A DNA stretch of 64,000 bases. Source: Streptomyces venezuelae (GTDB taxonomy: Bacteria > Actinomycetota > Actinomycetes > Streptomycetales > Streptomycetaceae). Below, piece after piece: positions 3,296-28,873 of the stretch (position 1 is its first letter; the number at the start of each line of letters is the position of its first letter). The position numbers were made by a program, and so were the translations under genes. The notes beneath the pieces were generated by a model, which was given only the letters and a program-made list of their open reading frames with translations, was not told the DNA's origin and made no database searches. The DNA is taken from positions 5,759,001-5,823,000 of the forward strand of contig NZ_CP029194.1 in NCBI RefSeq assembly GCF_008642375.1, written 5' to 3'.

Positions 3296-3304
3296 TCGAG
3301 GGCC

Positions 3305-3336
3305 GTGCGGGACCTGTAGCCTCGGAGGTCCCGCAC
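3305..3336 (+). terminator. Hairpin between DUF4233 gene and ndk
   Basis: An 11-bp perfect stem (GTGCGGGACCT / AGGTCCCGCAC) with a 10-nt loop, followed a few bases later by CTTTTCC. It probably ends the folC-DUF4233 transcript. The loop contains TAGCCT, which could be a -10 box for ndk. Confidence 0.6.
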
Positions 3337-3361
3337 ACCGCTTTTCCGAAGGAGTCCCCCC

Positions 3362-6107: not shown

Positions 6108-6772
6108 AGTTCAACCGCATCCTCCTCTCCGCGACCCTGATCGTGGTCGCCCTCGTCGTCCAGGTCTCCGTCCTCGCCCGCCTGCAACTCCCCGGCGCCG
6201 TCCCCGACCTGGTCCTCCTCACCGTGGTCGCCCTCGCCCTGGTGTACGGCCCCGTCAGCGGCTCCCTCATCGGCTTCACCGCCGGCCTCCTCGCCGACCT
6301 CGCCCCGCCCGCCGACCACGCCGCCGGCCGCTACGCCCTCGTGCTCTGCGTCATCGGCTACCTCGTCGGCCTCGCCAAGCCCGAGAACGGCCGGCTCACC
6401 TCCGCGACCGGCCCCATGGCCGTCGTCGTCGCCGCGGCCGTCGGCTCCACGCTGCTCTACGCGGGCGTGGGCGCCCTCGTCGGCGACACCGCCGCCCGCC
6501 ATGTGGGCCTCGGCTACCTGCTCTTCACCGCGGCGGTCTACGACCTGCTCCTCGCGCCCTTCACCGTGCCGCTCATCATGGCGCTGGCCCGGCGCGCCGA
6601 GAACGATCCACTCGCCGACGCCACCGGGGCGAACGGCGCCGACGTCGCCTCCGGCTGGCTGTCCTCCGGCACGGGCCTGCGGATCGGCAACCAGCGAGGC
6701 GGCCTGCGCGTGAAGGCCGCCCGCGGCCGCGCCTCAAAGGCCGGACGCATCAAGGGAGTCAAGCGACTGTGA
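6104..6772 (+). CDS. mreD: Rod-shape-determining membrane protein MreD
   Basis: A 222-residue polytopic protein with five or six hydrophobic helices in the first 165 residues and a basic, Arg/Lys-rich C-terminal tail of about 50 residues. MreD usually ends soon after the last helix, so this tail is a Streptomyces-type extension. The GTG start overlaps the mreC stop by 4 nt (GTGA), so translation is coupled. It works with MreC and PBP2 in the elongasome. Confidence 0.92.
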   Translation: MKFNRILLSATLIVVALVVQVSVLARLQLPGAVPDLVLLTVVALALVYGPVSGSLIGFTAGLLADLAPPADHAAGRYALVLCVIGYLVGLAKPENGRLTSATGPMAVVVAAAVGSTLLYAGVGALVGDTAARHVGLGYLLFTAAVYDLLLAPFTVPLIMALARRAENDPLADATGANGADVASGWLSSGTGLRIGNQRGGLRVKAARGRASKAGRIKGVKRL

Positions 6773-13758: not shown

Positions 13759-13777
13759 CACGCGGCAGGCACAGCGA

Positions 13778-13829
13778 GAACGGGCGAGGGCCCGGTCGCG
13801 GATTCCCGCGGCCGGGCCCTCGCCCGTTC
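13778..13829 (+). terminator. Terminator after the radical SAM gene
   Basis: An 18-bp perfect stem (GAACGGGCGAGGGCCCGG and its complement) with a 16-nt loop that itself folds (CGCGG/CCGCG). It lies 20 nt after the stop codon. Confidence 0.8.
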
Positions 13830-13855
13830 CCCCCACCGGTCTCCCCCGACACGAA

Positions 13856-13888
13856 GAGGCGCCCGGAGCATCCTGCTCCGGGCGCCTC
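13856..13888 (-). terminator. Second hairpin between convergent genes
   Basis: A 15-bp perfect stem (GAGGCGCCCGGAGCA and its complement) with a 3-nt loop, 20 nt beyond the stop of the minus-strand glycosyltransferase. It can act in both directions. Confidence 0.7.
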
Positions 13889-13908
13889 GCCGTGACGTCG
13901 GTCAGGTC

Positions 13909-16224
13909 CTAGTGGTCGGACCCCGCCGAGGTGAGCTCGTCCTGGTCCGCGGCCCGGGGGCGGGGCGTCGCGAGGCCCTCGGCCGCCCGCGGCGACGGGG
14001 CCGGGCGGCGCTCGGCCACCGGGACGACGGGCGGCCGCAGCGACTCCTCGCCGAGGAAGACCTGCCGGGCGACCCGCTCGGCCGCGAAGCCGTCGTCCCA
14101 GGTGCAGAACCGCTCCCGGAAGGCCTGGCGCAGCGTGGCCGCCTGCTCGCCCTCCCAGGCGCCGCTGCGGAAGGCCTCGATCAGCTCGTCCTCGCTGGTG
14201 GTCAGCACGCCGGGGGACTCGCCGGGCTCGCCGGAGAGCAGGTCGAAGGTGACGCCGCGGCAGGTCCGGTAGGCCTCCCAGTCGTCGGCGTACGTGACGA
14301 TCGGCCGGTCGAGGTTGGCGTAGTCGAACATGATCGACGAGTAGTCCGTGACCAGCGCGTCCGCCGCCAGGCAGAGGTCCTCGACGGACGGGTGCCGCGA
14401 CACGTCGACGAGCGCGCCCCGGTCGGCGAGCGAGCTCAACTCCTTGTCGCCGCCGTAGAAGTAGTGTGCGCGGACCAACAGCACGAAGTCCGGGCCGAGT
14501 TCGCGGGCGACGCGGGCCAGGTCCAGCCGGGAGACGAAGGCGTCCTTCTGGTGGTCGCGCACGGTGGGGGCGTACAGGATCGCCGTCTTGTCGTGCGCGA
14601 TGCCGAGTTCGGCGCGGATCCGGCGGACGTCCGCGGCGGTGGCGCGGTAGTAGACGTCGTTGCGGGGGTAGCCGGTGTTCAGGGTGCGGAAGGCGGCCGG
14701 GTAGACCCGCTCCCAGTTCTCGGTGGAGTGCTGGTTCGAGGAGACGCTCCAGTCCCAGCGGTCGACGCGCTCAAGCAGCTTCTCGAAGTCCATGCTGCGG
14801 GAGACGGCCGGGTAGAACTGCTGGTCCAGGCCCATCCGCTTGAGCGGGGTGCCGTGGTGCGTCTGCAGGTGGATCTGGCCGGGCCGCTTGATCACGGCGT
14901 CCGGGAAGTTGACGTTGTTGACCAGGTACTTGGCCCGGGCCAGCGCCTTCCAGTAGCCGAAGGTGGCCGGGGCGATCCGCTTGAGGCCGGGCTGCAGGCT
15001 GCCGGCGTACTCCTGGTTCACGACCCACACGGCGCGGATGCCGGGCGCGACCCGCTTGGCCGCCTCGTGCACGGCGAGCGGGTTGCAGCTGGGGGTGCGG
15101 CCCCAATAGGCCGAGTACACGGCGAGGTTGTCGTCCAGGGGGAGGCGGCGCTGCACGGCGTAGTAGGCGCGCAGGGCCTTGCGGCCGCCCCAGCGCTTGG
15201 ACCGGCCGAGGGAGCGGATGCTCGCCTCGCGGGTGCCGTTGACGACCTTGAGGCCTTCGAATCCGGTGTACGAACCGCTTCGCAGCACCTTGAACTTGAG
15301 GCCGAGGATGCCGGGCGGCGGCGTGTAGCCGGCCGGTTCGAGGTCGCGGTAGACCTTGGAGGCCTGCTTCAGGTACGCGCGACGGTGGCCCTTCGGTATG
15401 CGGAAGTCCCGGGCGAAGGTGAAGAGGAAGTGGGAGATCATCCGCGTGAAGACGGTGCTGCGGTACTCGTCGAGGCCGGGGCGGCCGTCGAGGTACGCGA
15501 AGACCCTGCGGTACTGCTCGAAGATCACGAAGTGCTTGCGCGGGGTGCTGCTGCGCATCGAGCTGCCGACCCGGCGCTGGCGGTACTCGACGACCACGTA
15601 CTCCAGGCCCGCGACGCGCCGGGCCGCGGCCATGGACGTGTAGACCATGAGCGCGTCCTCGTAGAGGCCGTCGGTGAAGGCGTAGCCCTCGCCGGTGAAG
15701 AAGTCGCGGCGGTAGAGTCGGTTCCAGACCACGGCGAACATCCGCAGCAGTTCGAGGCGGTCGGCGGGGCGGACGACCTGGCCGCGGATGCCGGCCAGGT
15801 ACGGGCCGGAGTTGCTGGGCTCGACGGCGCCGTCGAAGTGGGTGCGGACGTGGTCGAAGAGGAGGACCTCGGGGTCCTGGGCCTCGGCGAGCCGGTCCGC
15901 CATGGCCTGCAGGGAGCCGGGGCGGATCGAGTCGTCGCCGTCGATGAAGAGCAGGTAGTCGCCGCGGGCGTGTTCGACGCCGGTGTTGCGCGCGGCGCCT
16001 ATGCCGCCGTTCTCGGCGCGGTGGACGGCGCGCACGCGGGGGTCGCGTGCGGCGATCTCGTCGATGATGGCGCCGCTGCCGTCGAGGGAGCAGTCGTCGA
16101 CCGCGATGACCTCGAAATCTCGGTAACTCTGCGTAGTCACCGACTCGAGGCACTCGCGGATGTAGCCCTCGACCCCGTACACCGGGATGATCACGCTGAA
16201 TCGGGGATTGGCTGCAGCCGGCAT
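13909..16224 (-). CDS. GT2 glycosyltransferase fused to CDP-glycerol-type glycerophosphotransferase
   Basis: A 771-residue cytoplasmic or membrane-associated enzyme. The N-terminal GT-A domain (about residues 8-300) has SVIIPVYG, VDD at 42-44 and the metal-binding DGDD at 95-98. The C-terminal TagF-type domain (about 370-720) has HHGTPLKRMG (from His456) and VTDYSSIMFDY (from 625), the marks of CDP-glycerol:poly(glycerophosphate) transferases. It probably adds sugar and glycerophosphate units to a teichoic-acid-like wall polymer. The start is the ATG at 16222-16224, because GAGGAG lies 9 nt upstream; an upstream TTG is less likely. The disordered Pro/Ala-rich tail has no known role. Confidence 0.88.
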   Translation of the reverse strand: MPAAANPRFSVIIPVYGVEGYIRECLESVTTQSYRDFEVIAVDDCSLDGSGAIIDEIAARDPRVRAVHRAENGGIGAARNTGVEHARGDYLLFIDGDDSIRPGSLQAMADRLAEAQDPEVLLFDHVRTHFDGAVEPSNSGPYLAGIRGQVVRPADRLELLRMFAVVWNRLYRRDFFTGEGYAFTDGLYEDALMVYTSMAAARRVAGLEYVVVEYRQRRVGSSMRSSTPRKHFVIFEQYRRVFAYLDGRPGLDEYRSTVFTRMISHFLFTFARDFRIPKGHRRAYLKQASKVYRDLEPAGYTPPPGILGLKFKVLRSGSYTGFEGLKVVNGTREASIRSLGRSKRWGGRKALRAYYAVQRRLPLDDNLAVYSAYWGRTPSCNPLAVHEAAKRVAPGIRAVWVVNQEYAGSLQPGLKRIAPATFGYWKALARAKYLVNNVNFPDAVIKRPGQIHLQTHHGTPLKRMGLDQQFYPAVSRSMDFEKLLERVDRWDWSVSSNQHSTENWERVYPAAFRTLNTGYPRNDVYYRATAADVRRIRAELGIAHDKTAILYAPTVRDHQKDAFVSRLDLARVARELGPDFVLLVRAHYFYGGDKELSSLADRGALVDVSRHPSVEDLCLAADALVTDYSSIMFDYANLDRPIVTYADDWEAYRTCRGVTFDLLSGEPGESPGVLTTSEDELIEAFRSGAWEGEQAATLRQAFRERFCTWDDGFAAERVARQVFLGEESLRPPVVPVAERRPAPSPRAAEGLATPRPRAADQDELTSAGSDH

Positions 16225-16807
16225 GGCTTGTGTCTCCTCAGTCGAACCGCTCAAACGCAGTATGACAGGAGGCTTTCCGCACCCCGGAGGCCGCGGGCGC
16301 CCGCGTACGCGGTTAACGCACCCTTCCCCAGGGGTGAGGAGGGGGTCAACGAGGAGCGAACGGCCGAATTGCGCATCGTCTACCCTGGAGTGCTGCGGCG
16401 GTCGGGGGCCGCCGCACAGTCATGCAGGCAGATGGACCGGTGAAGAATGTCCCGAGTGGCCCTGGTGGTCCACGTACGTCACGCGCGCTCCCGCATGCAG
16501 GGACGCGCGGAAACGGTCCTGCGCTCTTCTGTGTCTCTGGTCACGAATCCCCCCGTCACGGGGCGGGGCCAGGTCCGCTTCTCTCCAGGGCGGGCCGGAG
16601 ACCGGCAGCTAAGCTGCGGACCGGGTACCGGGACAAGTACTGCAGTTCGACGGCGGGCGTGCGGCCCAGCACGTCGCCCGGCGGCTCTTTCTCGGAGGGT
16701 GGAGACGCCTCCCGACGATCCGCCGGAAAACCCCTAGCACGCCCCGTCACCCCTCAGGCGCTCGAGCTCGTCGAGCGGGTCTGAACCAGAAAGGAACGCA
16801 GAACTTC
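16225..16807. other. 583-bp divergent intergenic region
   Basis: This region separates two divergently transcribed GT-glycerophosphotransferase genes and must hold both promoters. A TACCCT box (16381-16386) and a GCGGCGG/CCGCCGC hairpin (16395-16415) can be seen. Short open frames here have no ribosome binding sites or recognisable motifs, and I see no gene. Confidence 0.5.
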
Positions 16808-19800
16808 ATGGCACCCCGGCTCAGCGTCATCGTCCCGATCTACAACGTGGCGGAGTACCTCCCAGCCTGCCTCAACTCCTTGGCCGTGCAGACCTTCCAG
16901 GACCTGGAAGTTCTCATGATCGACGACGGCTCCACCGACGACTCCAACGCCATCGCGGCGGAGTTCGCGGAGCAGGACGCCCGGTTCAGGCTGATACGCA
17001 AGGAGAACGCCGGCCTGGGTGCGGCCCGCAACACGGGACTCGACAGCCTGGCGCCGGAGAGCGAGTTCGTCACCTACGTCGACAGCGACGACATGATCCC
17101 GCCGGACGCCTTCCGGCTCATGATCAGCAGCCTGGACGAGACCGGCTCCTCCTTCGCCACGGGCAACGTGGAGCACATCAACTCCACCAGGATCTGGCAG
17201 TCCCCGATGCACCGGTTCCTGTCCCGGGGCGCGGTGAAGAAGACGCACGTCCGGAAGAACAAGAACCTCCTGACGGACCGCCTCGCCTGCAACAAGGTCT
17301 TCCGCCGTGACTTCTGGGAGCAGCACGGACTGCGCTTCCCCGAGGGCGTGCTGTACGAGGACACCCCGGTCATCGTGCCGGCCCAGTTCCTCGCCGAGTC
17401 CGTCGACATCATCAGCGAGCCCTGCTACTACTGGCGCCTGCGCGAGGGCGAGGCCAACCCCTCGATCACCCAGCGCCGCAACGAGCCCAAGGCCGCCCGT
17501 GACCGGGCCACCGGCTGCGAGCACGTCAGCCGCTTCCTCGCCGAGCAGAACAACCCCGACGCCGAAGCGCTGAAGCTCGCGTACGACAAGACCGTCCTCA
17601 CCGGCGACCTGCGCATCTTCCTCAACGTGATGCCCGACGGTGACGAGGAGTACCGCGCCGAGTTCCTGCGCGTGGCGAACAAGTTCCTCGACCAGATCGA
17701 CTTCAAGCTGATCAACACGCTGCCCACGGCGCTCCGCGTCAAGTGGCTGCTGGTCCGCAAGCACGCCGCGAACGAGCTGGTCGACTTCATCGAGGCCGAG
17801 CGCCTCGGCGAGCCCGTCGGACTCGACGGCGTCGTCCGCAAGTACGCCAAGTACTCCGCGCTGGAAGACCGCGGCGACCTCGTGCCCAAGAAGCTCCTGC
17901 GCGTCGACAAGGACCTCCAGCTCCGCTCCCCGCTGGACGAGCTGACCTGGGAGGACGGCAAGCTGAAGCTGTCCGGCCACGCCTGGATCGACCGCGTCGA
18001 CCAGACGGGCAAGCGCAGCGTCGTCAAGCTGCTCCAGCTGAAGAAGGACGGCACCCAGCGCCGCGTCCTCGTCCCGCTGGGCAACATCTTCGCCCCCGAG
18101 GCCACCACCGCCTCCGGCCACAAGGGCCGCGGCCACAGCTTCGACTGGGCCGGCTGGGAGACCGTCATCGACCCCGCCCGGTTCCGCAAGGGCGGCAAGT
18201 GGCAGGAGGGCCTCTGGCACGTGGGCATGCGTGTCATGTCCGGCGGCCTCGTGCGCTCCCGCTCCGTGCACTCGTACGGCACGGACCGCCTGACCTACCC
18301 GCCGTACCAGTGGCTCGACGACGACTACCGGATGGTCCCGGAGATCCGGCGCGCCGCGCTCAAGCTGCGCATCGAGAAGGTGCCGGTCGTCGTCACCGAC
18401 TTCAAGGCCTCCGGCGACGAGATCGTCGTCGAGGCCGTCTTCCGCGAGACCTTCGCGATGGGCACCGAGATCATCCTCCGGGTCGCCAACCAGAACAGCG
18501 GCGAGGTGCTCACCTACCCGGCCGAGGTCCTCGGCGTCAGCGGCGGGCACACCCGGCTGCGGATCAGCGTCCCGCTGCGCGACATAGCCCTGCTCCCCGA
18601 GCACCAGGACAGCGCCGACGCCGCGGCCGGCGGCGGTTCCGACGCCGCGAAGACGATGCGCCGCAACTGGAGCAGCCAGATCCGGGTCACGGAGCCGGGC
18701 CAGAAGCAGCGCTCCGTCAAGGTCGTCGTCAAGGACGGCCTGGCCGACCTCCAGGTCCGCCTGCCCGCCGAGTTCGGCGAGGAGGCCATGCAGAACGAGG
18801 TGGCCGTCCTCTCCGGAGCCAACGGCTACCTGAAGTTCTCCGGCCGCCCGCTGCGCGCCCGGATCACCGGCATCGCCTTCGCCGACGGAACGTTCCTCAT
18901 CCGCGGCGCCGCCCCCGTCGAGCTGTCCGACCACCACCTGGTCATCAGCGCCAAGGGCCGCTTCGACGAGCGGAAGGTCCCGCTCAACGTCCTGCCCGAC
19001 GGCTCCTTCGAGGCCTCCTTCCGCCCCGCCACCATGACGGGCACCAACAACAGGCTGCCGCTCAAGGCCGGCCGCTGGGTGCTCCGCCTGGAGTCCTCCG
19101 ACGAGGAGCAGTCCCTGCCGCTCGTCGTGGACCGCCTCGCCGTGTCCCAGTTCCCGCTGGAGGGCTCGCACAGCGGCCGCGACTACCGCATGGAGGTCCA
19201 CTGGCAGGACCACCCGCAGCTCAACTGCCTGCCCGACCTCAACGACATGGAGCGCGGCGCCAACCGCCAGTACCAGCTGCGCACCGAGGTCTACGAGCGC
19301 GGCCGTGAGCTGCCGCTGCGCGACGAGGTCCTGTACATCAGCTACAACGGCAAGCAGTTCTCGGACAGCCCGCGCGCCGTCCACGAGGAGCTGCTGCGCC
19401 GCGGTGCCGACGTGAAGCACCGCTGGCTGGTCCGTGACGGCCAGGTCGAGCTCCCGGACACGCTCGAAGCGGTCCGCTTCCAGGGCGCCGACTGGTACGA
19501 CGCCCTGGCTCGCTCGCGCTACATCATCACCAACGCCCACCTCCCGCACTGGATCAAGCGGCGGCCGGGACAGGTGATCGTGCAGGCCTGGCACGGCACG
19601 ATGCTCAAGAAGATCGGCCTCGACATCGAGGCGCCGAAGTTCGACCCGAACTACCACGAGCGCCTGGTCCAGGAAGCGGCGAACTGGAACATCCTCGTCT
19701 CGTCGAACCGTTTCAGCACGCCCATCCTCAAGCGGGCGATGGGCTACAACGGCCTGATCGCCGAGACGGGCTACCCGCGCAACGACTACCTGTACGCCGA

Positions 19801-20416
19801 GGACCGCGACGAGCGGGCCAAGGAGGTCAAGGCGCGCCTCGGACTGCCCGAGGGCAAGAAGGTCGTGCTGTACGCGCCGACCTGGCGCGACGACCTCTCC
19901 CACGCCCGTGGCCAGTTCAAGTTCGACCTCCGGGTCGACCTGGAGGACGCCCGCCGCCGTCTCGGGGACGACCACGTCTTCCTCGTCCGGCGCCACTCGA
20001 ACATCGTGGACAGCATCCCGGGCGCCGGGAACGGCTTCGTCTTCGACGTCTCCGAGTACCCGGACATCGCGGACCTCTACCTGGCCGCCGACATCATGAT
20101 CACGGACTACTCGTCGGTCATGTTCGACTACGCGCACCTGCGCCGGCCGATGCTCTTCTTCACGTACGACCTCGAGCACTACCGTGACCGGCTGCGCGGG
20201 TTCTACTTCGACTTCGAGCAGGACGCCCCGGGCCCGCTGGTGGAGACCTCGGACGACCTGATCCAGGCCATCCGGGAGATCGACGAGGTGGCGGTCGCGT
20301 ACCAGGAGAAGTACGACGAGTTCCACCACCAGTTCTGCGACCTCGACGACGGCTACGCGGCCGGCCGGGTCGCCGACCTGATGTTCAAGATCGCCAAGGA
20401 GGGCGCGCCGCTGTAG
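16808..20416 (+). CDS. Large GT2 glycosyltransferase - glycerophosphotransferase fusion (1202 aa)
   Basis: A 1202-residue protein. The N-terminal GT-A domain (about 1-300) has SVIVPIYN and DSDD (Asp92-Asp95). A long middle region of about 480 residues (roughly 350-830) is predicted to be beta-rich, with several repeated-looking Ig-like or carbohydrate-handling segments and no motif I can name. The C-terminal TagF-type domain (about 840-1190) has WHGTMLKKIG with His929 and ITDYSSVMFDY (Thr1099-Ser1103). Known relatives polymerise or prime glycerophosphate or ribitol-phosphate wall polymers. ATG 16808 is preceded by AAAGGAA. It is divergent from 13909-16224, and a terminator follows at 20441-20478. 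Confidence 0.87.
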   Translation: MAPRLSVIVPIYNVAEYLPACLNSLAVQTFQDLEVLMIDDGSTDDSNAIAAEFAEQDARFRLIRKENAGLGAARNTGLDSLAPESEFVTYVDSDDMIPPDAFRLMISSLDETGSSFATGNVEHINSTRIWQSPMHRFLSRGAVKKTHVRKNKNLLTDRLACNKVFRRDFWEQHGLRFPEGVLYEDTPVIVPAQFLAESVDIISEPCYYWRLREGEANPSITQRRNEPKAARDRATGCEHVSRFLAEQNNPDAEALKLAYDKTVLTGDLRIFLNVMPDGDEEYRAEFLRVANKFLDQIDFKLINTLPTALRVKWLLVRKHAANELVDFIEAERLGEPVGLDGVVRKYAKYSALEDRGDLVPKKLLRVDKDLQLRSPLDELTWEDGKLKLSGHAWIDRVDQTGKRSVVKLLQLKKDGTQRRVLVPLGNIFAPEATTASGHKGRGHSFDWAGWETVIDPARFRKGGKWQEGLWHVGMRVMSGGLVRSRSVHSYGTDRLTYPPYQWLDDDYRMVPEIRRAALKLRIEKVPVVVTDFKASGDEIVVEAVFRETFAMGTEIILRVANQNSGEVLTYPAEVLGVSGGHTRLRISVPLRDIALLPEHQDSADAAAGGGSDAAKTMRRNWSSQIRVTEPGQKQRSVKVVVKDGLADLQVRLPAEFGEEAMQNEVAVLSGANGYLKFSGRPLRARITGIAFADGTFLIRGAAPVELSDHHLVISAKGRFDERKVPLNVLPDGSFEASFRPATMTGTNNRLPLKAGRWVLRLESSDEEQSLPLVVDRLAVSQFPLEGSHSGRDYRMEVHWQDHPQLNCLPDLNDMERGANRQYQLRTEVYERGRELPLRDEVLYISYNGKQFSDSPRAVHEELLRRGADVKHRWLVRDGQVELPDTLEAVRFQGADWYDALARSRYIITNAHLPHWIKRRPGQVIVQAWHGTMLKKIGLDIEAPKFDPNYHERLVQEAANWNILVSSNRFSTPILKRAMGYNGLIAETGYPRNDYLYAEDRDERAKEVKARLGLPEGKKVVLYAPTWRDDLSHARGQFKFDLRVDLEDARRRLGDDHVFLVRRHSNIVDSIPGAGNGFVFDVSEYPDIADLYLAADIMITDYSSVMFDYAHLRRPMLFFTYDLEHYRDRLRGFYFDFEQDAPGPLVETSDDLIQAIREIDEVAVAYQEKYDEFHHQFCDLDDGYAAGRVADLMFKIAKEGAPL

Positions 20417-20440
20417 GCGGTGCCCCCGGGCGTACGACAA

Positions 20441-20478
20441 GAGCCCCGGTCCGCAGGTCTCCCTGCGGGCCGGGGCTC
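20441..20478 (+). terminator. Bidirectional terminator between convergent glycosyltransferase genes
   Basis: A 17-bp stem (GAGCCCCGGTCCGCAGG against its complement with one G-U pair) with a 4-nt loop, midway between the stops at 20416 and 20532. Confidence 0.75.
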
Positions 20479-20531
20479 CGTCGTGCGGGCCGGGCCGGGC
20501 TCGGTCGTGCGGACCGGGCCCGGCTACCGGG

Positions 20532-22553
20532 TCACTTCTTGTCGATGATCTTCAGCGAGAGCTGGCCGTTGCTGGAGAAGTACGGGCGCAGCTCGTTCCG
20601 GACGCCGGTGACGGCGGTGGGAACGGCGGCCAGCCGGTTGCGCCAGCCGCTCTTCGGCTTGGTGTCCACCGCGGCCGGAGCCGGGGCGCCGGACTGCTTC
20701 ACCACCGGGTACGGGAAGGTGAAGACGTCCATCGGGACGAGCACGTCGGTGGCCAGCTTGCAGACGCGGATCCGGGCGGACTCCTGGTCCGGCAGCAGCC
20801 AGAGGTCCCAGACGTCCTCGGCGCCGGCCTCGTGGAGGCGGGCCGCGGCGGCGTTGTCCAGGGAGGCCGTGAAGCGTCCGTCGGCGCCGGGCTTCACCGG
20901 GAAGGTGAAGTTCCTGTCGGCCTCCTTGCGGTGGACGGCCTCGATGACGCTGTCCTTGCCGGGCTCGACGCCCCAGGCCGCCGCGTCGATGACGATCGCG
21001 GTGGCGCCGGCGTGCAGGGCGGCGACCTCGACGTGCTGGGCGCGCACCCGGCTCTGCACCCGCAGGGTGCCGTCCGTGTGGGCGTGCGGCAGCAGCAGGG
21101 ACAGGGCGGGGCCCTCGGTGCGGGGCAGCTTCAGCGACAGGATCTGCAGGGTGTCGCAGCCGGCCGACCGCAGCGGCAGGTCGAAGCCGGCGGCGCGGAT
21201 CTCCAGCTGCCAGTCGCCCTCGACGAGCTTGCCGAGCGCGGGGACCAGTGCCTCGTCGCCGACGAAGGGGACGACGACCTCGTCGGCCTTCTTGCGGATG
21301 TCCTTGCAGACCAGCTGGGCGTCGCTGTCGGCGGGCAGGCCGGCGATCCGCACCCGGACGTCGCCCTGCGGGGTGACCACGGCGGCGGCCGAGCGGGGGA
21401 TGGCCCGGCGGGCCCGCATGGTCTCGACGAGCTGCTCGAAGCGGGCGGCGGTCTCGGCCTCCTGGAAGCGGACCACGTTGGCCACCGCGGCGGCGGCCAT
21501 CTTCCGGCGCAGGTCCTCGTCGGAGATCAGCTTCTCGATGTGCTCGGCGAGCGCCTGCTTGTCGCCGAGCGGCACGACGTAGCCGTCCTCGCCCTGCTTG
21601 ATGATGTTGCGCGGGCCGTGCGGCGCGTCGTAGCAGATCGCCGGCAGTCCGGCCGCCATCGCCTCGACGGTGACGTTGCCGAAGGCCTCCAGGTGGGAGG
21701 GGAGGACGAACACGGACGCCTTGGCGAACTCCGGGGTGACCGGGGTGGCGGGGCCCATCAGGAAGATCTGGTTGTTGCTGTCCGTCTCGTCGATCTTCTT
21801 GCGCAGGTTGGCACGCTCGGGGCCGGAGCCGTAGATCCGCAGGCTCCAGTCCGGGTGGCGCGGTGCCACGGTGGAGAACGCCTCGATGAGGTCGCCGAAG
21901 CCCTTGTGGGTCTTCAGCAGGCCCGCGGTGACGACGATCTTGTTGTCCCCGGTGGACATCTGGCCCTCGTGGGCCGGGATGCAGTTGGGCATCGGGGAGA
22001 GCAGGTGGCTCACGGCGGGGACGACCCCGGCGATGGTCTTGCACTCGTCCGGCGTCGGCGCGGTGATCGCGTCCATCTTCGGGTACGCGTCCCGGAAGAG
22101 GGCGTCCCGGATGTGCGGGCCGTACCGCGCGGGCCGCGAGTGCTCCATCGCGACCTTGAGGAAGTCGCGGTCCGAGTAGGCCAGCATGATGGTGATCTTG
22201 GGGTTGTTGCTGACCACGACGTCGGCGTCGGTCGTGGCCAGGTACTCCATCAGCCGCTTCTCGGCCAGCCGGCTGATCCAGGGCTTCTTGTCCGTGGGCT
22301 CGTTCGGATAGATGTGCGGGAAGACCTCGATCGACGGGTCGTCGCCGTCGTACGTGTGGGAGTGCTTCCGCATGTCGCTGAGGGCCAGCGTCTTCACCCG
22401 GGGGTCGAGCGGGAAGTACGCCTGGTCGCGGTTGCGGCGGAGGGAGACGAGCTCGACCTCGTGGTCATCCGCGAGCGCCTTCGCCAGGTTGTGGATGGCG
22501 CTGACCACGCCGCCGATGTGACAGCGGTCAACCAGCAGGAAGGATATTTTCAT
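20532..22553 (-). CDS. GT4-family glycosyltransferase with C-terminal extension
   Basis: A 673-residue protein. Residues 1-390 form a GT-B fold: the N-terminus KISFLLVDRCHIGGV carries the acceptor-side glycine loop, and the donor site contains SHLEAFGNVTVEAMAAGLP (E-x7-E motif). The remaining 280 residues resemble the beta-rich middle region of the neighbouring 1202-residue protein in style, but carry no motif I recognise. The start is the ATG at 22551-22553 with GAGG 6 nt upstream; an earlier in-frame start would lack a ribosome binding site. With the two flanking transferases it forms a three-gene wall-glycan island. Confidence 0.85.
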   Translation of the reverse strand: MKISFLLVDRCHIGGVVSAIHNLAKALADDHEVELVSLRRNRDQAYFPLDPRVKTLALSDMRKHSHTYDGDDPSIEVFPHIYPNEPTDKKPWISRLAEKRLMEYLATTDADVVVSNNPKITIMLAYSDRDFLKVAMEHSRPARYGPHIRDALFRDAYPKMDAITAPTPDECKTIAGVVPAVSHLLSPMPNCIPAHEGQMSTGDNKIVVTAGLLKTHKGFGDLIEAFSTVAPRHPDWSLRIYGSGPERANLRKKIDETDSNNQIFLMGPATPVTPEFAKASVFVLPSHLEAFGNVTVEAMAAGLPAICYDAPHGPRNIIKQGEDGYVVPLGDKQALAEHIEKLISDEDLRRKMAAAAVANVVRFQEAETAARFEQLVETMRARRAIPRSAAAVVTPQGDVRVRIAGLPADSDAQLVCKDIRKKADEVVVPFVGDEALVPALGKLVEGDWQLEIRAAGFDLPLRSAGCDTLQILSLKLPRTEGPALSLLLPHAHTDGTLRVQSRVRAQHVEVAALHAGATAIVIDAAAWGVEPGKDSVIEAVHRKEADRNFTFPVKPGADGRFTASLDNAAAARLHEAGAEDVWDLWLLPDQESARIRVCKLATDVLVPMDVFTFPYPVVKQSGAPAPAAVDTKPKSGWRNRLAAVPTAVTGVRNELRPYFSSNGQLSLKIIDKK

Positions 22554-22650
22554 ACCGAGCCTCAACGTGTCCTGGGTTAGGTGGGGGGATGCGCAACGTG
22601 TGTGGGGAGCGGGCGTCGGCACCTAGGCTACGGGGCCTCTCAAGGAGGCG

Positions 22651-23853
22651 GTGCCGAACAGTCCGGATCCGGCGGCCGAGGTGAACCGTGAGCGGGACTT
22701 TTGCGTCTCCCGGGACATGTACCTGGAGAAAGCGGCCCCCGGCCCGGCGCCCGAAGGCTGCCTGACCGCGGCGATCAGGATCCCCGTACGGATCGTGGTG
22801 CTGGTCGTCGTCGTCCCCGTACGCCTCGTCTGGGACGCGCTCGCCCTGTCCGGCGCCTTCCTGGGCCGCGTGCTGCTGCACCCGCTCGGCCGGGCCTACG
22901 GCTGGTTCCACGAGAACGTGCTCGCGCCCGTCGGCCGCGCCGTCGCCCGGACGGCCGAAGCCCTCGCCGCGGTGACGTGGTGGCTGCTCAGAGCCGTCTT
23001 CTACTGGCCCTGGCTCGGCCTGTGGCGCCACGTCCTCGTACCGCTCGCCGTCCATCTGATCGCCGCCCCCGCGGCCTGGCTGTACCGCGCCGTCCTCGCA
23101 CCGCTCGGGCGCGGCCTCGCCCATGCGTCGGCCTGGGTGTACGCCCGGCTGCTCGCACCGCTCGGCCGCGGCGTCGGCCTCGCGCTGTGGGCGGTGCTGG
23201 TCTGGCTGTGGACCGCCCTGTGGCGGTACGTGGCCGTGCCGCTGGCCTCGGCGGCGTACCGGTACGTCCTCACACCGCTCGGCCACGGTCTCGTCCTGCT
23301 CGGAAGGGGCGTCGCCTGGCTCCTGAAGGGCCTCGCGACCGGCCTGATGTGGCTCGGGAAGGTCCTCGTCGTCGTCCCCGCCGCCTTCCTGTACCGCTGG
23401 GTGCTCACCCCCGTCGGACGGGTCCTCGCGGTGATCGGCCGCGAGATCGCCGCCGCCCTCGCCATCGGCTGGCGCATGGCCGGGTACATCTCCCTGGCGG
23501 TCGGCCGCGCCCTGAAGTGGCTCGCGTGGAACCTGCTCGGCCGCCCCGTGAGCTGGTTCTACCGGAGCGTGTGCACCCCGGTCGGCCACTTCGTCCGCGA
23601 CGCCGTGTGGCGGCCCGCGAAGGAGGCCGCCGTGGAGACCGGCCGGGCGGTCCGCGGAGCCCTCGCCTCGGCACGGGAGACCGTGCGCCGGGCGCGCCGC
23701 GACGCGTGGCACGCCCTGGTCGGCGGGGAGCGGCGGCCCGAGCCTGTGAACGCTCCACAGGGTCAGGCGCGTAACCTGGGAGATGCTGCACCACGACAGA
23801 CCGTTCCCGGCATGGTGGCCGAGGCCGAGATCTCCCTGCACAAGCGGGGGTGA
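22651..23853 (+). CDS. Repetitive membrane-associated protein with PLGR/PVGR motifs
   Basis: A 400-residue protein of unknown function. Between residues about 45 and 315 it is almost continuously hydrophobic and aromatic (Trp, Leu, Val). It is punctuated by seven copies of P[LV]G[RH] at residues 78, 93, 151, 170, 209, 254 and 310, usually preceded by VL[AT] and an aromatic-Arg pair such as WLYRAV or YRYV. The C-terminal 85 residues are charged. GTG 22651 follows AAGGAGG by only 2 nt, so a later start (GTG 22681 or ATG 22714) is possible. The product could be polytopic or lie as amphipathic helices on the membrane. It sits just upstream of the DUF2344 gene. Confidence 0.7.
   Translation: MPNSPDPAAEVNRERDFCVSRDMYLEKAAPGPAPEGCLTAAIRIPVRIVVLVVVVPVRLVWDALALSGAFLGRVLLHPLGRAYGWFHENVLAPVGRAVARTAEALAAVTWWLLRAVFYWPWLGLWRHVLVPLAVHLIAAPAAWLYRAVLAPLGRGLAHASAWVYARLLAPLGRGVGLALWAVLVWLWTALWRYVAVPLASAAYRYVLTPLGHGLVLLGRGVAWLLKGLATGLMWLGKVLVVVPAAFLYRWVLTPVGRVLAVIGREIAAALAIGWRMAGYISLAVGRALKWLAWNLLGRPVSWFYRSVCTPVGHFVRDAVWRPAKEAAVETGRAVRGALASARETVRRARRDAWHALVGGERRPEPVNAPQGQARNLGDAAPRQTVPGMVAEAEISLHKRG
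23772..23777 (+). promoter_or_regulatory. Candidate -10 box inside the end of the repetitive membrane protein gene
   Basis: TAACCT lies 5 nt before ATG 23783, which is in frame with the DUF2344 gene. It could give a leaderless, N-terminally extended product, or a 5' leader for the CTG start at 23936. Confidence 0.35.
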
Positions 23854-23935
23854 GCCGGCCGGGCCCCGAGGGAACCCCCGTACACCTGTGGGCGGCGCGC
23901 CCCCCGCGCCCGCCCCGCACCGAGGAGAAGAACCA

Positions 23936-24769
23936 CTGGGCAAGCGACAGCCCGAAGGCCCGCCGCCCGCACCGGCGGTGCAGCGCATCCGACTGCGCTA
24001 CACCAAGCGCGGCCGCCTCCGGTTCACCAGCCACCGTGACTTCCAGCGCGCCTTCGAGCGTGCGCTGCGCCGTGCCGAGGTGCCCATGGCGTACTCGGCC
24101 GGCTTCACCCCGCACCCCAAGGTGTCGTACGCCAACGCCGCCCCGACGGGTGTGGGCTCCGAGGCCGAGTACCTGGAGATCGCGCTCACCCAGACGCGCG
24201 ACCCGGAGATGCTGCGGGCCCTGCTCGACGAGTCCCTCCCCGCGGGCCTCGACATCACCGACGCCGTCGAGGCCCGGACCTCGGGTCTCGCCGACCGCCT
24301 CACCGCCTCCGTGTGGGAGCTGCGGCTCGAAGGCGTCACCGTCGAGGACGCGAAGAAGGCCGCCGACGCGTTTCTCGCGGCCGAGACCGTGGAAGTACAG
24401 CGCAAGACCAAGAACGGCATCCGCACCTTCGACGCCCGCTCCGCGGTCACCGAGCTGACGGTTTCCTCTCCCCAGGGCGATCCCCAGGGTGATAGGCCGC
24501 TGGACAGCGCCTGTGCGATACTGCGGCTGGTTGTTCGGCACGTGACACCTGCCGTACGACCCGACGACGTCCTGTCCGGTCTCCGAGCTGTGGCCGACCT
24601 GGCGCCGCCGGTCCCCGCTGCGGTGACCAGGCTGGCGCAGGGGCTCTTCGACGAGGAGTCCGGCACGGTGACCGACCCGCTCGCGCCCGACCGCGAGGCA
24701 GTCACGGCCGCTTCAACCACGGCCGCCGGGACCGCCTCAGCGACGGCGCCGGGTGCAGGTACCGCGTAG
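23936..24769 (+). CDS. DUF2344 / TIGR03936 protein, partner of the radical SAM protein
   Basis: A 277-residue protein with the family N-terminus RIRLRYTKRGRLRFTSHRDF and the segment YSAGFTPHPKVSYANA. In many bacteria this domain is fused C-terminally to the radical SAM module encoded here at 11830-13758. The start is uncertain. I prefer CTG 23936, because GAGGAG (23922-23927) lies 8 nt upstream and the next residues GKRQPEGP are family-like. Alternatives are GTG 23978 without a ribosome binding site, or the leaderless ATG 23783, which would add 51 Pro-rich residues. The function is unknown; RNA or ribosome-related modification is a guess from the partner. Confidence 0.82.
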   Translation: MGKRQPEGPPPAPAVQRIRLRYTKRGRLRFTSHRDFQRAFERALRRAEVPMAYSAGFTPHPKVSYANAAPTGVGSEAEYLEIALTQTRDPEMLRALLDESLPAGLDITDAVEARTSGLADRLTASVWELRLEGVTVEDAKKAADAFLAAETVEVQRKTKNGIRTFDARSAVTELTVSSPQGDPQGDRPLDSACAILRLVVRHVTPAVRPDDVLSGLRAVADLAPPVPAAVTRLAQGLFDEESGTVTDPLAPDREAVTAASTTAAGTASATAPGAGTA

Positions 24770-25003: not shown

Positions 25004-28000
25004 ATGCTCGAGTCCAACGAAGACACCAACGCCCCCGGTGACAAGCTGCCGCCGCGCCGCCGGCGCCGCGCCGCTTCCCGCCCCGCCGGTCCGCCGGTGA
25101 CGGAGGGCACCCAGGCCACCGAGAACACGGCGCCCGCCGAGACCCCGGCCGTCGAGGCCGCACCGGTCGAGGCCGAGGCCGCCCCCGCGCCGCGCACCCG
25201 CCGCCGCGCCACCCGCAAGGCCACCGCACCGGCCGTCGAGACCGTCGAGGTCGGCGCCCCCCTCGCAGAGGTCCCCGCCGCTGCCGAGCCGGTCGCCGAG
25301 ACCGCCGCCGCTCCGGCCGCCGACGAGACCGCCGAGGCCGCTCCGGCCCGCCCGGCCCGCCGTCGTGCCACCCGTAAGGCCACGTCGCCGGTGACGTCCA
25401 CGGCCGCCGTGGAGGAGCCCGCGGTTGAGTCCGCGCCGGTCGCCGCCGCCCCGGTCGAGGAGGCCCCCGAGGCCGCTCCGGCCCGCCCGGCCCGCCGTCG
25501 TGCCACCCGTAAGGCCACGTCGCCGGTGACGTCCACGGCCGCCGTGGAGGAGCCCGCGGCCGAGGCCGCGCCGGTCGCCGCCGCCCCGGTCGAGGAAACC
25601 CCCGAGGCCGCGCCCGCCCCCCGTACCCGCCGCCGCGCCACCCGCAGGGCCACCTCGCCCGAGGCCGCCCCCGAGGCGCCCGCCGAGACCGCCGCCGCGG
25701 AGACCGCCACCGGCGAGTCCCTGCCGCAGGCCGTCGTCGCGCAGATCGCCGCCGACGAGACCGAGGTCGCCGCCGCCGAGACCGCCGCCACCCGCGGCCG
25801 CGGCCGTCGCCGCGCCACCTCGCCGCAGTTCACCTCCGAGCCCGTCGCGAAGCCGGAGACGTCCCGCGCCCGCCGCGCCGAGCGTCCCGCCGTCGCCGTC
25901 TTCCAGGCCCCGGTCTTCGCCGAGCCGATGTTCCAGACCCCGGAGACGGCCGCGATGGCAGCCGCCGGGATCGTGGAGCCGGAGGAGCTGGAGGAGGACG
26001 AGACCGACGAGACCGTCGAGACCGTCGAGGCCGAGGTCGTCGAGACGGCCGGGCCCATCGAGATCCCCGAGGCCACGGAGCGGGCCGAGTCCGGCTCCCG
26101 CCGCCGTCGCCGCCGCCGTGGCGAGCCCGTCGCCGTCGAGCCCGTCCCGGCCACCGTCGCCGACGAGCCCGAGGTCGAGGCCGCCGCCGACGAGCTCGAC
26201 GAGGCCGACGAGACCGAGGAAGCCGACGAGTACGGGGACCGACCGTCCCGCCGTCGCCGCCGTGGCGGCCGTCGCCGTCGCCGCGGTGAGCTCACCGAGG
26301 TCGAGGACTCGGAGGAGTCCGACGAGGTCCGCGCCGAGGACGAGGGCGAGACCGAGGAGGGCGAAGAGGAGCAGGACGAGACCGAGGCGTACGCCGGCGG
26401 CTCCAGCAGCTCCCGCCGTCGCCGTCGCCGTCGCCGCCGCAGCGGGGACGCCGCCGCCGACGTCGAGGGCACCGACGAGGAAGGCGTCCGCACGGTCGTC
26501 AAGGTCCGCGAGCCCCGCCCGGCCCGCGAGAAGGCCGAGGCCGGCACGAGCGCCGACGAGGTCCAGTCCATCAAGGGCTCGACCCGCCTGGAGGCCAAGA
26601 AGCAGCGGCGCCGCGAGGGCCGCGAGCAGGGCCGCCGCCGCGTCCCGATCATCACCGAGGCCGAGTTCCTGGCCCGCCGCGAGGCCGTCGAGCGCGTCAT
26701 GGTCGTCCGCCAGAGCGGCGAGCGCACCCAGATCGGCGTCCTGGAAGACAACGTGCTCGTCGAGCACTACGTCAACAAGGAGCAGGCCACCTCGTACGTC
26801 GGCAACGTCTACCTGGGCAAGGTCCAGAACGTCCTGCCGTCGATGGAGGCCGCGTTCGTCGACATCGGCAAGGGCCGCAACGCCGTCCTGTACGCCGGTG
26901 AGGTCAACTTCGAGGCGCTCGGCATGGCCAACGGGCCGCGCCGCATCGAGACCGCCCTCAAGTCCGGCCAGTCGGTCCTCGTGCAGGTCACGAAGGACCC
27001 GATCGGCCACAAGGGCGCCCGCCTGACCAGCCAGGTCTCCCTGCCCGGCCGCTACCTCGTGTACGTGCCCGAGGGCTCGATGACCGGCATCAGCCGCAAG
27101 CTCCCGGACACCGAGCGCGCCCGACTGAAGACCATCCTCAAGAAGATCGTCCCCGAGGACGCGGGCGTCATCGTGCGCACCGCCGCCGAGGGCGCGAGCG
27201 AGGACGAGCTGCGCCGCGACGTCGAGCGTCTGCAGGCGCAGTGGGAGGACATCCAGAAGAAGGCGAAGCAGATCTCGACGAGCGCGCCGAGCCTGCTGTA
27301 CGGCGAGCCGGACATGACCGTCCGGGTCGTCCGCGACATCTTCAACGAGGACTTCTCCAAGGTCATCGTCAGCGGTGACGAGGCGTGGGAGACCATCCAC
27401 GGCTACGTCTCGCACGTCGCCCCGGACCTGGCCGACCGCCTGTCCAAGTGGACGAGCGAGGTCGACGTCTTCGCGACGTACCGGATCGACGAGCAGCTCA
27501 TGAAGGCGCTCGACCGCAAGGTCTGGCTGCCGTCCGGCGGCTCGCTGGTGATCGACAAGACCGAGGCGATGATCGTCGTCGACGTCAACACCGGCAAGTT
27601 CACCGGCCAGGGCGGCAACCTCGAAGAGACCGTGACGAGGAACAACCTCGAAGCGGCCGAGGAGATCGTGCGCCAGCTCCGGCTGCGCGACCTCGGCGGC
27701 ATCGTCGTCATCGACTTCATCGACATGGTCCTGGAGTCCAACCGCGACCTGGTGCTGCGCCGCCTCCTGGAGTGCCTGGGCCGTGACCGGACCAAGCACC
27801 AGGTGGCCGAGGTCACCTCGCTCGGCCTGGTCCAGATGACCCGTAAGCGGGTCGGCCAGGGCCTCCTCGAGTCCTTCTCCGAGACCTGCGTCCACTGCAA
27901 CGGCCGCGGTGTCATCGTCCACATGGAGCAGCCGGCGGTCACCGGCGGCGGTGGCAAGCGGGCGAAGAAGCGCGGCCGCGGCGGCGCCGAGCACGTCCAT

Positions 28001-28873
28001 GAGCACGAGCACGAGCACGAGACCGCCGAGTCCGGTGCCGAGGTGGAGACCGAGGCCGAGGTCGCGGCGGAGCTGGCCGAGCCGGTCGCCCTGCCCGAGC
28101 CGATCGCCCCGGACGAGGAGCTGTACGGCAGCATCGCCGAGGCCGAGGCCGCCGCCACGCGCGGTCGTGGCCGCCGCCGCGCCACCCGCCGGGTGTCCGC
28201 GCCGGCCGCCCCGGTCACCCCGGCCCGTGTCGTGGAGACCGAGACCTACGTGGTGGAGCCGGAGCCCGTCGCCGAGGCCGTCACGGTCGTCGAGCCGGTG
28301 GCCGAACCGGTCGTCGAGCCGGTCGTCGAGGCCGTGGTCGAGGAGACCCCGGCCCCGCGCGCCCGTCGCCGCGCCACGCGCCGGGTGACGTCCCCGGTCG
28401 TGTCGACCACGGAGGCCGCCGAGCCCGCCGTCGTCGAGCCGGTGGCCGCGCCCGTCGCCGAGGAGGCCCCCGTGGCCGCCCCGGAGCCGGAGCCCGTCGT
28501 GGAGACCGCGCCCGAGCCTGCCGTCGAGGAGGCCCCCGTGGCCGCCCCGCCGCGTGCCCGTCGCCGGGTGGTCCGTAAGGCCACCGCTCCCGCCGGTTCC
28601 CCCGCGGGTGCCGAGGAGGCCGCCGTCCTGGTGGTCGCCACGGCCCCGGCTGAGACCGAGGCCGCCACCGCGGAGCCCGAGGCGGAGGCCGAGACCGAGG
28701 CCGCGCCGGCCAAGAAGACGGCCGCGCGCAAGACCGCGAAGAAGGCCACGGCCAAGAAGGCCGCCACCAAGAAGACGGCGGCGACCAAGAAGACGGCCGC
28801 GAAGAAGACCACCGCCAAGAAGGCCCCGGCCAAGAAGGCGGCGGAGAAGACCCCGGCTCCGGCCCAGGACTGA
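25004..28873 (+). CDS. rne: Ribonuclease E/G family endoribonuclease (RNase ES type)
   Basis: A 1289-residue endoribonuclease whose catalytic core lies in the middle, as known for Streptomyces RNase ES. Residues 1-540 are disordered, Ala/Glu/Pro/Arg-rich, with repeats of RRRATRKATSP. The core (about 555-985) has the S1 domain, the metal-binding aspartates Asp860 (VVDVNTGKF) and Asp904 (VIDFIDM), and the zinc-link CVHC (Cys962, Cys965). After it come a His-rich stretch (HVHEHEHEHE), more RRRATRR repeats and a Lys/Ala/Thr tail like histone H1. It processes rRNA and degrades mRNA. The flanks probably bind RNA and degradosome partners. A hairpin ends the transcript at 28879. Confidence 0.96.
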   Translation: MLESNEDTNAPGDKLPPRRRRRAASRPAGPPVTEGTQATENTAPAETPAVEAAPVEAEAAPAPRTRRRATRKATAPAVETVEVGAPLAEVPAAAEPVAETAAAPAADETAEAAPARPARRRATRKATSPVTSTAAVEEPAVESAPVAAAPVEEAPEAAPARPARRRATRKATSPVTSTAAVEEPAAEAAPVAAAPVEETPEAAPAPRTRRRATRRATSPEAAPEAPAETAAAETATGESLPQAVVAQIAADETEVAAAETAATRGRGRRRATSPQFTSEPVAKPETSRARRAERPAVAVFQAPVFAEPMFQTPETAAMAAAGIVEPEELEEDETDETVETVEAEVVETAGPIEIPEATERAESGSRRRRRRRGEPVAVEPVPATVADEPEVEAAADELDEADETEEADEYGDRPSRRRRRGGRRRRRGELTEVEDSEESDEVRAEDEGETEEGEEEQDETEAYAGGSSSSRRRRRRRRRSGDAAADVEGTDEEGVRTVVKVREPRPAREKAEAGTSADEVQSIKGSTRLEAKKQRRREGREQGRRRVPIITEAEFLARREAVERVMVVRQSGERTQIGVLEDNVLVEHYVNKEQATSYVGNVYLGKVQNVLPSMEAAFVDIGKGRNAVLYAGEVNFEALGMANGPRRIETALKSGQSVLVQVTKDPIGHKGARLTSQVSLPGRYLVYVPEGSMTGISRKLPDTERARLKTILKKIVPEDAGVIVRTAAEGASEDELRRDVERLQAQWEDIQKKAKQISTSAPSLLYGEPDMTVRVVRDIFNEDFSKVIVSGDEAWETIHGYVSHVAPDLADRLSKWTSEVDVFATYRIDEQLMKALDRKVWLPSGGSLVIDKTEAMIVVDVNTGKFTGQGGNLEETVTRNNLEAAEEIVRQLRLRDLGGIVVIDFIDMVLESNRDLVLRRLLECLGRDRTKHQVAEVTSLGLVQMTRKRVGQGLLESFSETCVHCNGRGVIVHMEQPAVTGGGGKRAKKRGRGGAEHVHEHEHEHETAESGAEVETEAEVAAELAEPVALPEPIAPDEELYGSIAEAEAAATRGRGRRRATRRVSAPAAPVTPARVVETETYVVEPEPVAEAVTVVEPVAEPVVEPVVEAVVEETPAPRARRRATRRVTSPVVSTTEAAEPAVVEPVAAPVAEEAPVAAPEPEPVVETAPEPAVEEAPVAAPPRARRRVVRKATAPAGSPAGAEEAAVLVVATAPAETEAATAEPEAEAETEAAPAKKTAARKTAKKATAKKAATKKTAATKKTAAKKTTAKKAPAKKAAEKTPAPAQD
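25334..25424 (+). repeat. 91-bp direct repeat, copy 1, inside rne
   Basis: This is identical base for base to 25469-25559. The period is 135 bp (45 codons), encoding the unit that contains RPARRRATRKATSPVTSTAA. Confidence 0.9.
25469..25559 (+). repeat. 91-bp direct repeat, copy 2, inside rne
   Basis: Second copy of the 25334-25424 repeat. Perfect identity at the DNA level suggests recent duplication or gene conversion and makes the length of the N-terminal arm prone to change. Confidence 0.9.

Follow-up and report, generated by a model that had tools for sequence, protein, structure and literature searches.

A chromosomal protein of Streptomyces venezuelae built from a tryptophan/proline helical unit shared with phage tape measure proteins

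The open reading frame (ORF) 22651–23853 lies on the plus strand of a stretch of 64,000 nucleotides of the Streptomyces venezuelae chromosome (contig NZ_CP029194.1, positions 5,759,001–5,823,000; hereafter the window) and is present as described in an initial annotation, which had called its product a repetitive PLGR/PVGR membrane protein. We find that the protein and its family have the build of a tape measure repeat, yet are no tape measure proteins, since the gene stands outside any phage tail module. Our preferred reading, to which we assign a probability of roughly 0.4, is that of a stand-alone tape-measure-type helix, basic and curved by its prolines, which would lie in the plane of the inner leaflet.

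The hydrophobicity of the window protein has its Fourier peak at 96.2° per residue (3.74 residues per turn) with a power of 16.2, compared with a mean of 4.9 and a maximum of 10.8 for 300 shuffled sequences. Two alignments were used: A1 has 39 members including the window protein, and A2 has 77 sequences, namely the window protein, 58 of 67 proteins from named loci and 18 of the 38 other members of A1. All 77 sequences of A2, the window protein among them, peak at 92–98° (median 95.5° or 3.77 residues per turn, minimum power 12.1), and the stripe, with a period of about 3.75–3.8 residues, runs along some 320 residues. Three of four distant homologues with 28–33% identity peak at 94–95.5° and the fourth, at locus L201, at 98° (3.67 residues). 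The L201 protein (2201–3452 of its locus) also has an N-terminus rich in Glu/Arg and Asp, and its 98° (11/3) amphipathic periodicity is very strong (power 9.4). Among 220 gene-like ORFs from the window and 400 kb of the same genome, the window protein ranks third with a power of 15.7. The two ORFs ahead of it peak at 101.7° and 103.5°, in the range of heptad coiled coils, and the fourth is almost level (power 15.6, 102.8°). When the periodicity is calculated in local windows, eight other proteins of the window reach at most 2.2, compared with 5.4 for this protein.

The prolines are in register with the stripe. A proline is followed by another at +11 in 38% of cases against a background of 6%, and charged residues or histidines are concentrated at +3 and +6. 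With phases measured relative to the local hydrophobic centre, residues of the same type being left out, the 1,292 prolines lie at −57° from that centre with a coherence of 0.80, and Arg, Lys, His, Asp, Thr and Trp fall within 32° of the side opposite to it.

The P[LV]G[RH] motifs that first drew attention to the gene are part of this larger repeat design. The count of seven between residues 78 and 313 proved exact (residues 78, 93, 151, 170, 209, 254 and 310 in GTG-start numbering); 10,000 shuffles of the protein contain three at most, and 9,202 of them contain none. The aromatic and basic residues said to precede the motifs are found as well, with a basic residue or His 4–6 positions before all seven and Tyr at −6 in five, as is the richness in Trp, Leu and Val (21, 50 and 43 residues, respectively, within residues 41–330). 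Overall, Leu, Val, Ile, Met and Phe make up about 40% of the protein, Trp 7.5% and Asp plus Glu about 2%; in residues 17–300, Lys and Arg account for 9.9%, and Asp and Glu for 1.8%.

AlphaFold2 run with 39 sequences predicts helices at residues 15–194 and 199–335 (mean predicted local distance difference test score, pLDDT, 75.4; predicted template modelling score, pTM, 0.32), and with 77 sequences at residues 16–149 and 151–335 (mean pLDDT 74.3, pTM 0.33). No strand is predicted in either run. Both predictions come close to a single long helix, interrupted at a position that differs between the runs, and have no confident global arrangement. Foldseek retrieved nothing from the PDB at E values up to 10. 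BFVD gave 12 matches at the same threshold, of which five are named tape measure and two minor tail proteins (best E value 0.0032, TM-score 0.15). VIA-align found nothing comparable to the first model, and for the second a single myosin rod (Z 5.1), which at a root-mean-square deviation of 130 Å is meaningless. These comparisons say little about a standard known fold, the prediction of which the initial annotation had named as evidence against its proposal. The curved membrane-surface helix array put forward in the initial annotation is the better supported of its two proposals, given the stripe in 77 of 77 sequences, the prolines on one flank and the long helix in two AlphaFold2 runs. What is predicted is one long helix and no array, and its curvature and membrane location are what we infer from these features.

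The same unit recurs in phage tape measure proteins. Seven of the 39 members of A1 match phrog_971, a phage family of 1,338 positions labelled endolysin (best E value 2.5e-9), and in all six members for which the match was located (L002, L040, L051, L052, L055 and L062) it lies in the repeat region. In tblastn searches of 50,697 phage records at E values up to 1, L052 matched 86 records (best listed 2e-4), L002 77 (1e-3) and L032 19 (4e-5). Among the 55 matches listed (20, 20 and 15), 52 carry the label tape measure; the remaining three are a gene of phage Phendrix labelled transglycosylase, which a second record of that phage labels tape measure. The reversed sequence of L052, the one homologue tested in this way, retains composition and stripe and matched none of the phage records. 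RodA, used as a further control, retrieved only its own FtsW/RodA-type relatives or unannotated records and is uninformative on chance matches to tape measure proteins. When the family was aligned to five segments of tape measure proteins using hhalign, the probability was 92% and the E value 6.6e-7 over 209 columns. These segments have stripes at 94.6–96.8° with powers of 18–37 (shuffle maxima 9–13.5), mostly stronger than those of other windows of the same proteins.

The unit can be written as [WYF]h[WYF]xxhhxP. It occurs 256 times in the 77 family sequences (29,678 amino acids), at least once in 76 of them and three times in the window protein, and 27 times in the five tape measure proteins (8,294 amino acids), compared with twice in 219 background ORFs (109,884 amino acids) and 1.0 times per shuffled set of 77. 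Aligned on the proline, both sets have W at −8, L at −7, W/Y at −6, a polar residue at −5, V/I at −3, I/L at −2, V/A at +1 and, at +3, another polar residue. We take this architecture as common to the family and to tape measure proteins, by descent or by convergence. One of the phage proteins, the tape measure of Tsukamurella phage TPA2, has a second stretch with an equally strong stripe at 96.3° (power 36.5), so that the unit is present in several blocks of that protein.

Compared in detail, the family and the tape measure proteins of actinophages (the PHROG 971 stretch; phages of Gordonia, Microbacterium, Arthrobacter and Tsukamurella) have in common the unit W-h-[WY]-polar-x-V/I-I/L-x-P-V/A, a stripe at 94–97° and phase-coherent prolines. 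They differ in genomic setting, the neighbours of the present gene being mre, rodA, radical SAM, DUF2344 and rne genes, and in length, with 378 residues here against 713–2,356 in the five proteins examined. The polar face is basic here and amide or acidic there, and the pairing of prolines at 11 residues and an extracytoplasmic function (ECF)-type promoter are features of the present gene. The statement that no described family has this architecture holds for curated cellular families, but the architecture itself is not new, as it resembles the Trp/Pro repeat of actinophage tape measures. For the window protein, Pfam gave no family at E values up to 1 and NCBIfam no credible match, and the 39 members of A1 match only unrelated Pfam families, with one or two members each. 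A sequence search of the PDB with the window protein gave no match, and one with the A2 profile gave 30 hits, the best of which (a cysteine-biosynthesis protein, E value 0.083) we take as chance. Literature searches for SCO2601, for SCO2600 and the regulon and for Streptomyces DUF2344 found no paper, the S. coelicolor orthologue tag being unverified, and a search by descriptive terms, with chromosomal tape-measure-like proteins outside its scope, returned nothing relevant.

Periods from 11/3 to 19/5 suit right-handed supercoils, which is one reason to consider a solution rod that works like a tape measure, with helices whose hydrophobic stripe mediates self-association or is covered by a partner, and which have no main role at the membrane. 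Unit and stripe are common to both groups, and the available text of PMC3271669 describes tape measure proteins whose repeats are 11 residues long and marked by Trp, and in which W and F at fixed repeat positions are anchors for small auxiliary proteins. With about 40% aliphatic residues and Phe, 7.5% Trp and hardly any acidic residues, however, a soluble rod is improbable without a coat, and no phage tail genes surround the gene, so that we regard this possibility as quite doubtful.

A second alternative is a multi-span or pore-forming membrane protein with proline-kinked membrane-crossing helices, which corresponds to the other proposal of the initial annotation. Such a crossing, during DNA entry, is commonly ascribed to the hydrophobic part of phage tape measure proteins, and the resemblance to these proteins counts in favour of this alternative. 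Five 19-residue windows are favourable on the octanol scale (26–44, 85–103, 155–173, 210–228 and 268–286), and the sums of −14.4 for 85–103 and −12.6 for 155–173 are hydrophobic enough to span, a point that tells against our preferred reading. Under a permissive rule, the window protein has eight transmembrane-like windows and 67 homologues have 5–11. These windows, however, hold 1.6–1.7 charged or His residues each on average, compared with 0.67 in RodA and 0.75 in the 222-residue ORF 6104–6772, and the longest stretch free of Lys, Arg, Asp and Glu is 19 residues (homologue median 23) compared with 43 in RodA. The side bias of Lys and Arg is 0.26 (homologues 0.23) and that of the controls 0.33 and 0.58, a weak test as the RodA control is also low. 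A helix unbroken over 134–185 residues leaves little room for a bundle. A single polar stripe keeps its phase across all segments, which fits a helix at a single interface better than alternating membrane crossings. RodA, a multi-span protein of the same cluster, resembles the window protein in its aliphatic content; what sets the latter apart is its single coherent amphipathic stripe, the charges within its hydrophobic windows and its few acidic residues. We consider the multi-span arrangement disfavoured and somewhat unlikely.

Two eukaryotic systems offer analogies for the preferred reading, a helix lying in one leaflet. Exchangeable apolipoproteins of the ApoA-I type have a long amphipathic helix of short, proline-punctuated repeats that is thought to bend round lipid. 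The present protein has the same general build, with proline pairs at 11 residues and coherent proline phase as described above. In apolipoproteins the charges of the repeats are mixed and the period is 11/3, in contrast to the low acidic content (about 2%) and the periods of 3.74 (window) and 3.77 (median of 77) rather than 3.67 found here; Trp on the polar side and the lack of a sequence match, including to the curated Pfam apolipoprotein model (window protein and 39 members), are further differences. Caveolins, according to the available text of PMC12330381, are animal and choanoflagellate proteins that remodel membranes and form amphipathic disks of spiralling helices with a central β-barrel. 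Long amphipathic helices are common to both, as an in-plane spiral may be; the monomer predictions made here contain no strands, and there is no sequence relation, the Pfam caveolin model matching neither the window protein nor the 39 members. By analogy, the protein may work like an apolipoprotein or a caveolin while being a member of neither group.

In the model that we favour, a free-standing chromosomal protein made of [WYF]h[WYF]xxhhxP units would form an amphipathic helix of about 320 residues, nearly in one piece, in which the distance between prolines is often 11 residues. The broad hydrophobic face of this helix would be sunk in the cytoplasmic leaflet. Arg, His, Lys, Thr and much of the Trp are on the narrow face, which would lie at the headgroups, where the basic residues could bind anionic lipid. 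As the prolines are on one flank and each kink would bend the helix in the same direction, an arc or spiral in the membrane plane is expected. The basic C-terminal end (residues 300–336) might dock onto anionic lipid or a partner, and the whole, made from an ECF-type promoter, may serve as a scaffold giving stiffness or shape to the inner leaflet.

That the frame is coding follows from its gene-like GC content (0.768, 0.541 and 0.915 at the three codon positions, the last being normal for this genome) together with the pairwise ratios of nonsynonymous to synonymous substitution (dN/dS) against four relatives of 0.66, 0.55, 0.39 and 0.44, which indicate a real protein that evolves fast. The C-terminal basic end has values of 0.27, 0.54, 0.13 and 0.22 over 36 codons, compared with 0.73, 0.62, 0.38 and 0.39 in the repeats. 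DUF2344, taken as a comparator, gave 33 codons that are all identical and hence uninformative. We place the start at ATG 22717, giving a product of 378 residues, because homologues have a common Met (MDLEK, MELEK, MDYGK and similar) at residue 23 of the reported ORF. The portion of that ORF 5' of this codon overlaps a conserved promoter.

Homologues were collected in several ways. Searches with the single protein were positive for 19 of 41 relatives, for 68 of 99 genomes at the level of the order and for 92 of 121 within the genus, so that the absence of orthologues elsewhere, which the initial annotation had named as evidence against its proposal, did not occur when the distribution across actinobacteria was checked. 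A profile search of 296 genomes of the class gave 24 positives, 21 from the same genus and three from one other family; a match in genome G036 (E value 1.7e-7 in the single-protein search) was not recovered by the profile. The three genomes from the other family, together with L201 from a different family within the same order, supply the distant relatives mentioned above (identities from tblastn), and all have the same build, two of the four with '(R)ALFG' near the end. Two of them, L212 and L213, have a 6-O-methylguanine-DNA methyltransferase gene within a few hundred bases, in a context unlike that in Streptomyces. The nearest named relative found is in S. narbonensis (91% identical). In named genomes, a scan confirmed 436 places, and the best 80 of them were used as named loci; 67 of the 80 entered the protein counts and 13 gave no ORF by the start rule. 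Left out of the counts were L020–L030 (second pieces), L067 (frame lost) and L093 (no tail motif). For upstream counts, L014 was omitted (no Met by the start rule) and the removal of six duplicates reduced 105 regions to 99. Of 16 same-genus genomes with no or a weak match, 15 lack any trace of it over about 5 kb 5' of DUF2344; L199 has a C-terminal remnant only.

The length of the homologues varies from 327 to 458 residues (n = 67), which fits a scaffold or ruler better than an enzyme. Together with a dN/dS of 0.66 (repeats 0.73) against the nearest relative and the frequent lack of a match, this could also point to a drifting, near-neutral ORF kept only by two flanking or overlapping promoters. 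Against such drift, the amphipathic pattern is retained in all 77 sequences and in relatives of 28–33% identity, Arg21, Pro23, Arg36, Asp40, Trp252 and Arg327 are invariant (within A1 also Arg310, Arg327 and Gly336), and the gene has a conserved promoter of its own. We think drift highly improbable.

This first promoter is a putative one of conserved ECF type. The sequence CGTC is found 13 (or 19) nucleotides before the ATG in 94 of 99 distinct upstream regions and is accompanied by a −35-like hexamer at a spacer of 16 or 17 in 90. With the exact spacer, the pattern is present in 71 of 99, compared with 0.25% in shuffles. The plus strand of the window has 20 occurrences of the degenerate ECF pattern, so that only conservation of the pattern counts as evidence. 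Its position 13 nucleotides before the ATG suggests a leaderless or nearly leaderless mRNA. Among the 90 homologue promoters, the −35 element has AAC in 40, ATC in 47 and AGC in three. The window form AAC-N17-CGTCT has, by eye, the spacing of the σE promoters printed in PMC6767563, the available text of which names mreB, a gene of the same cluster here, as a σE target. The main text of PMC10771440, as far as available, names no SCO260x gene. A generic σ70 scan found no promoter.

The conserved 'ARTLG' tail of the protein was considered as a protein feature and rejected, as it is encoded by codons ending in A or T amid about 93% GC at third positions and the element is kept where the gene is absent. 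In 66 loci, the codons for 'RTLG' are CGT (66), ACT (53), CTG or CTT (60) and GGT (59), with A or T at the third position in 100, 85, 48 and 100% compared with 6.7% in the gene body. Relatives have a conserved GGGAACC before these codons, the element being GGGAACC-N16-CGTACTCT. Judged by eye, a similar element is found in six of seven loci without the gene that have an extractable upstream region (L183, L189, L190, L196, L198 and L200) and is not obvious in the seventh (L185). At L197, a TetR-like ORF (by eye) ends in 'ARTLGRSTTALTKD', the element forming its C-terminus. The tail is probably a second, internal promoter for DUF2344–rne, judging from these codons, and because it overlaps the coding end the conservation of the tail would be a by-product of the DNA element. 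Two further loci, L136 and L148, have about 1.1 kb between the gene and DUF2344, with promoter-like GTACCCT elements twice 5' of DUF2344.

On its 5' side, the window has mreB, mreC, a penicillin-binding protein gene, rodA, a CYTH-CHAD gene and the radical SAM gene; Obg lies 3', with DUF2344/TIGR03936 and RNase E in between. The gene is 5' of DUF2344 in all 80 named loci, at a distance of at most 300 nucleotides in 78. It also precedes rne in 69 loci (the remaining 11 are short), and the radical SAM gene is found on its own 5' side in 63 of 80, within 400 nucleotides in 35. This constancy and the conserved basic C-terminal end are what would be expected of an anchor tethering RNase E, or the pair of DUF2344 and radical SAM proteins, to the membrane by means of its basic C-terminal helix. 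On the other side, the 15 same-genus genomes sampled for absence of the gene all keep DUF2344, the distant relatives are not beside DUF2344 or a radical SAM gene in the stretches fetched, and the putative internal promoter suggests that the downstream genes are transcribed separately. We therefore give little credence to an anchor.

According to the available text of PMC5311408, φJoe-like elements integrate close to where the radical SAM gene ends, which probably explains the variable stretch between that gene and the present one. In the window this stretch (13759–22650) holds an 843-residue ORF (13912–16443, plus strand) without a Pfam match, a fused glycosyltransferase/CDP-glycerol glycerophosphotransferase gene and a reverse-strand GT4 glycosyltransferase gene; this arrangement is seen in the lineage of the window (L072–L074, three of 80 loci) and adjoins a known φJoe-type attB site. 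Phage origin of the gene itself from φJoe-like elements at the neighbouring attB is unsupported, there being no Streptomyces phage in the match tallies. A bolder version of our reading combines these observations into a phage tape measure repeat tamed by the host beside an integration hot spot in the mre cluster, recharged with Arg and His, placed under an ECF-type envelope promoter, and lining or piercing the inner membrane as a proline-curved ribbon of about 48 nm (if straight); this we consider unlikely.

Several observations weigh against the reading as a tape-measure-type helix in the inner leaflet. Trp is mostly on the polar side, which is unusual for a plain surface helix, and the confidence of the AlphaFold2 models is moderate. 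The link to tape measure proteins is uneven: only seven of 39 members match phrog_971, the window protein matches phages only at E values of 2–8 (six records, all tape measure) and none at 0.01, and neither L034 (E value up to 1) nor L049 (up to 0.01) has a phage match. The unit was defined after both sets had been viewed, and the five segments were picked from hits. Its polar positions hold Arg/His in the family and Asn/Gln/Asp/Lys in tape measure proteins, and proline pairs at 11 residues are few in the latter (two of 50). The gene was unmatched in 29 of 121 genomes of the genus. Finally, the sigma factor may be another of the ECF group, since about half of the promoters have ATC and no SCO260x gene is named in the main text of PMC6767563, as far as available.

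Table 1. Coordinates of the gene, its predicted elements and its downstream neighbours in the window
Feature	Position	Strand	Basis and remarks
Protein-coding gene, 378 amino acids	22717–23853	+	Met start common to homologues; dN/dS 0.39–0.66
Residues 15–335, predicted near-single long helix with tape-measure-type units, 11-residue Pro spacing, stripe of about 3.75–3.8 residues per turn and P[LV]G[RH] motifs	22759–23721	+	AlphaFold2, periodicity, unit counts
Residues 300–336, conserved basic helix end (PAKEAAVETGRAVRGALASARETVRRARRDAWHALVG)	23614–23724	+	Invariant residues; lower dN/dS than repeats
Putative ECF-type promoter: TGAACC (22682–22687), 16-nucleotide spacer, CGTCT (22704–22708), 13 nucleotides 5' of the ATG	22682–22708	+	Conservation in upstream regions
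Putative internal promoter in the 3' end of the gene: GTGAAC (23746–23751), TAACCT (23772–23777)	23746–23777	+	Encodes the 'ARNLG' tail; −35 part weak in the window
DUF2344/TIGR03936 radical-SAM-associated protein, downstream neighbour	23783–24769	+	Family models; coordinates are ORF bounds
RNase E/G family protein	25004–28873	+	Family models

Even if the proposed mechanism is wrong, there remains a family for which we found no Pfam or NCBIfam model, with a resemblance to tape measure repeats and two putative promoters, one of which, hidden in the 3' end of the gene, makes the tail of the protein look conserved for reasons of DNA. Were the host-tamed repeat true, bacteria would have in this protein a counterpart to caveolin or apolipoprotein whose ancestry lies in phage tails. 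If the preferred reading is right, Streptomyces would have a dedicated, repeat-built membrane protein in its main cell-wall (mre) cluster under an envelope-type promoter. As a protein that stands by itself, it would offer a model of the part of tape measure proteins that acts on membranes, and it would allow one to ask how the spacing of prolines sets the curvature of a helix.

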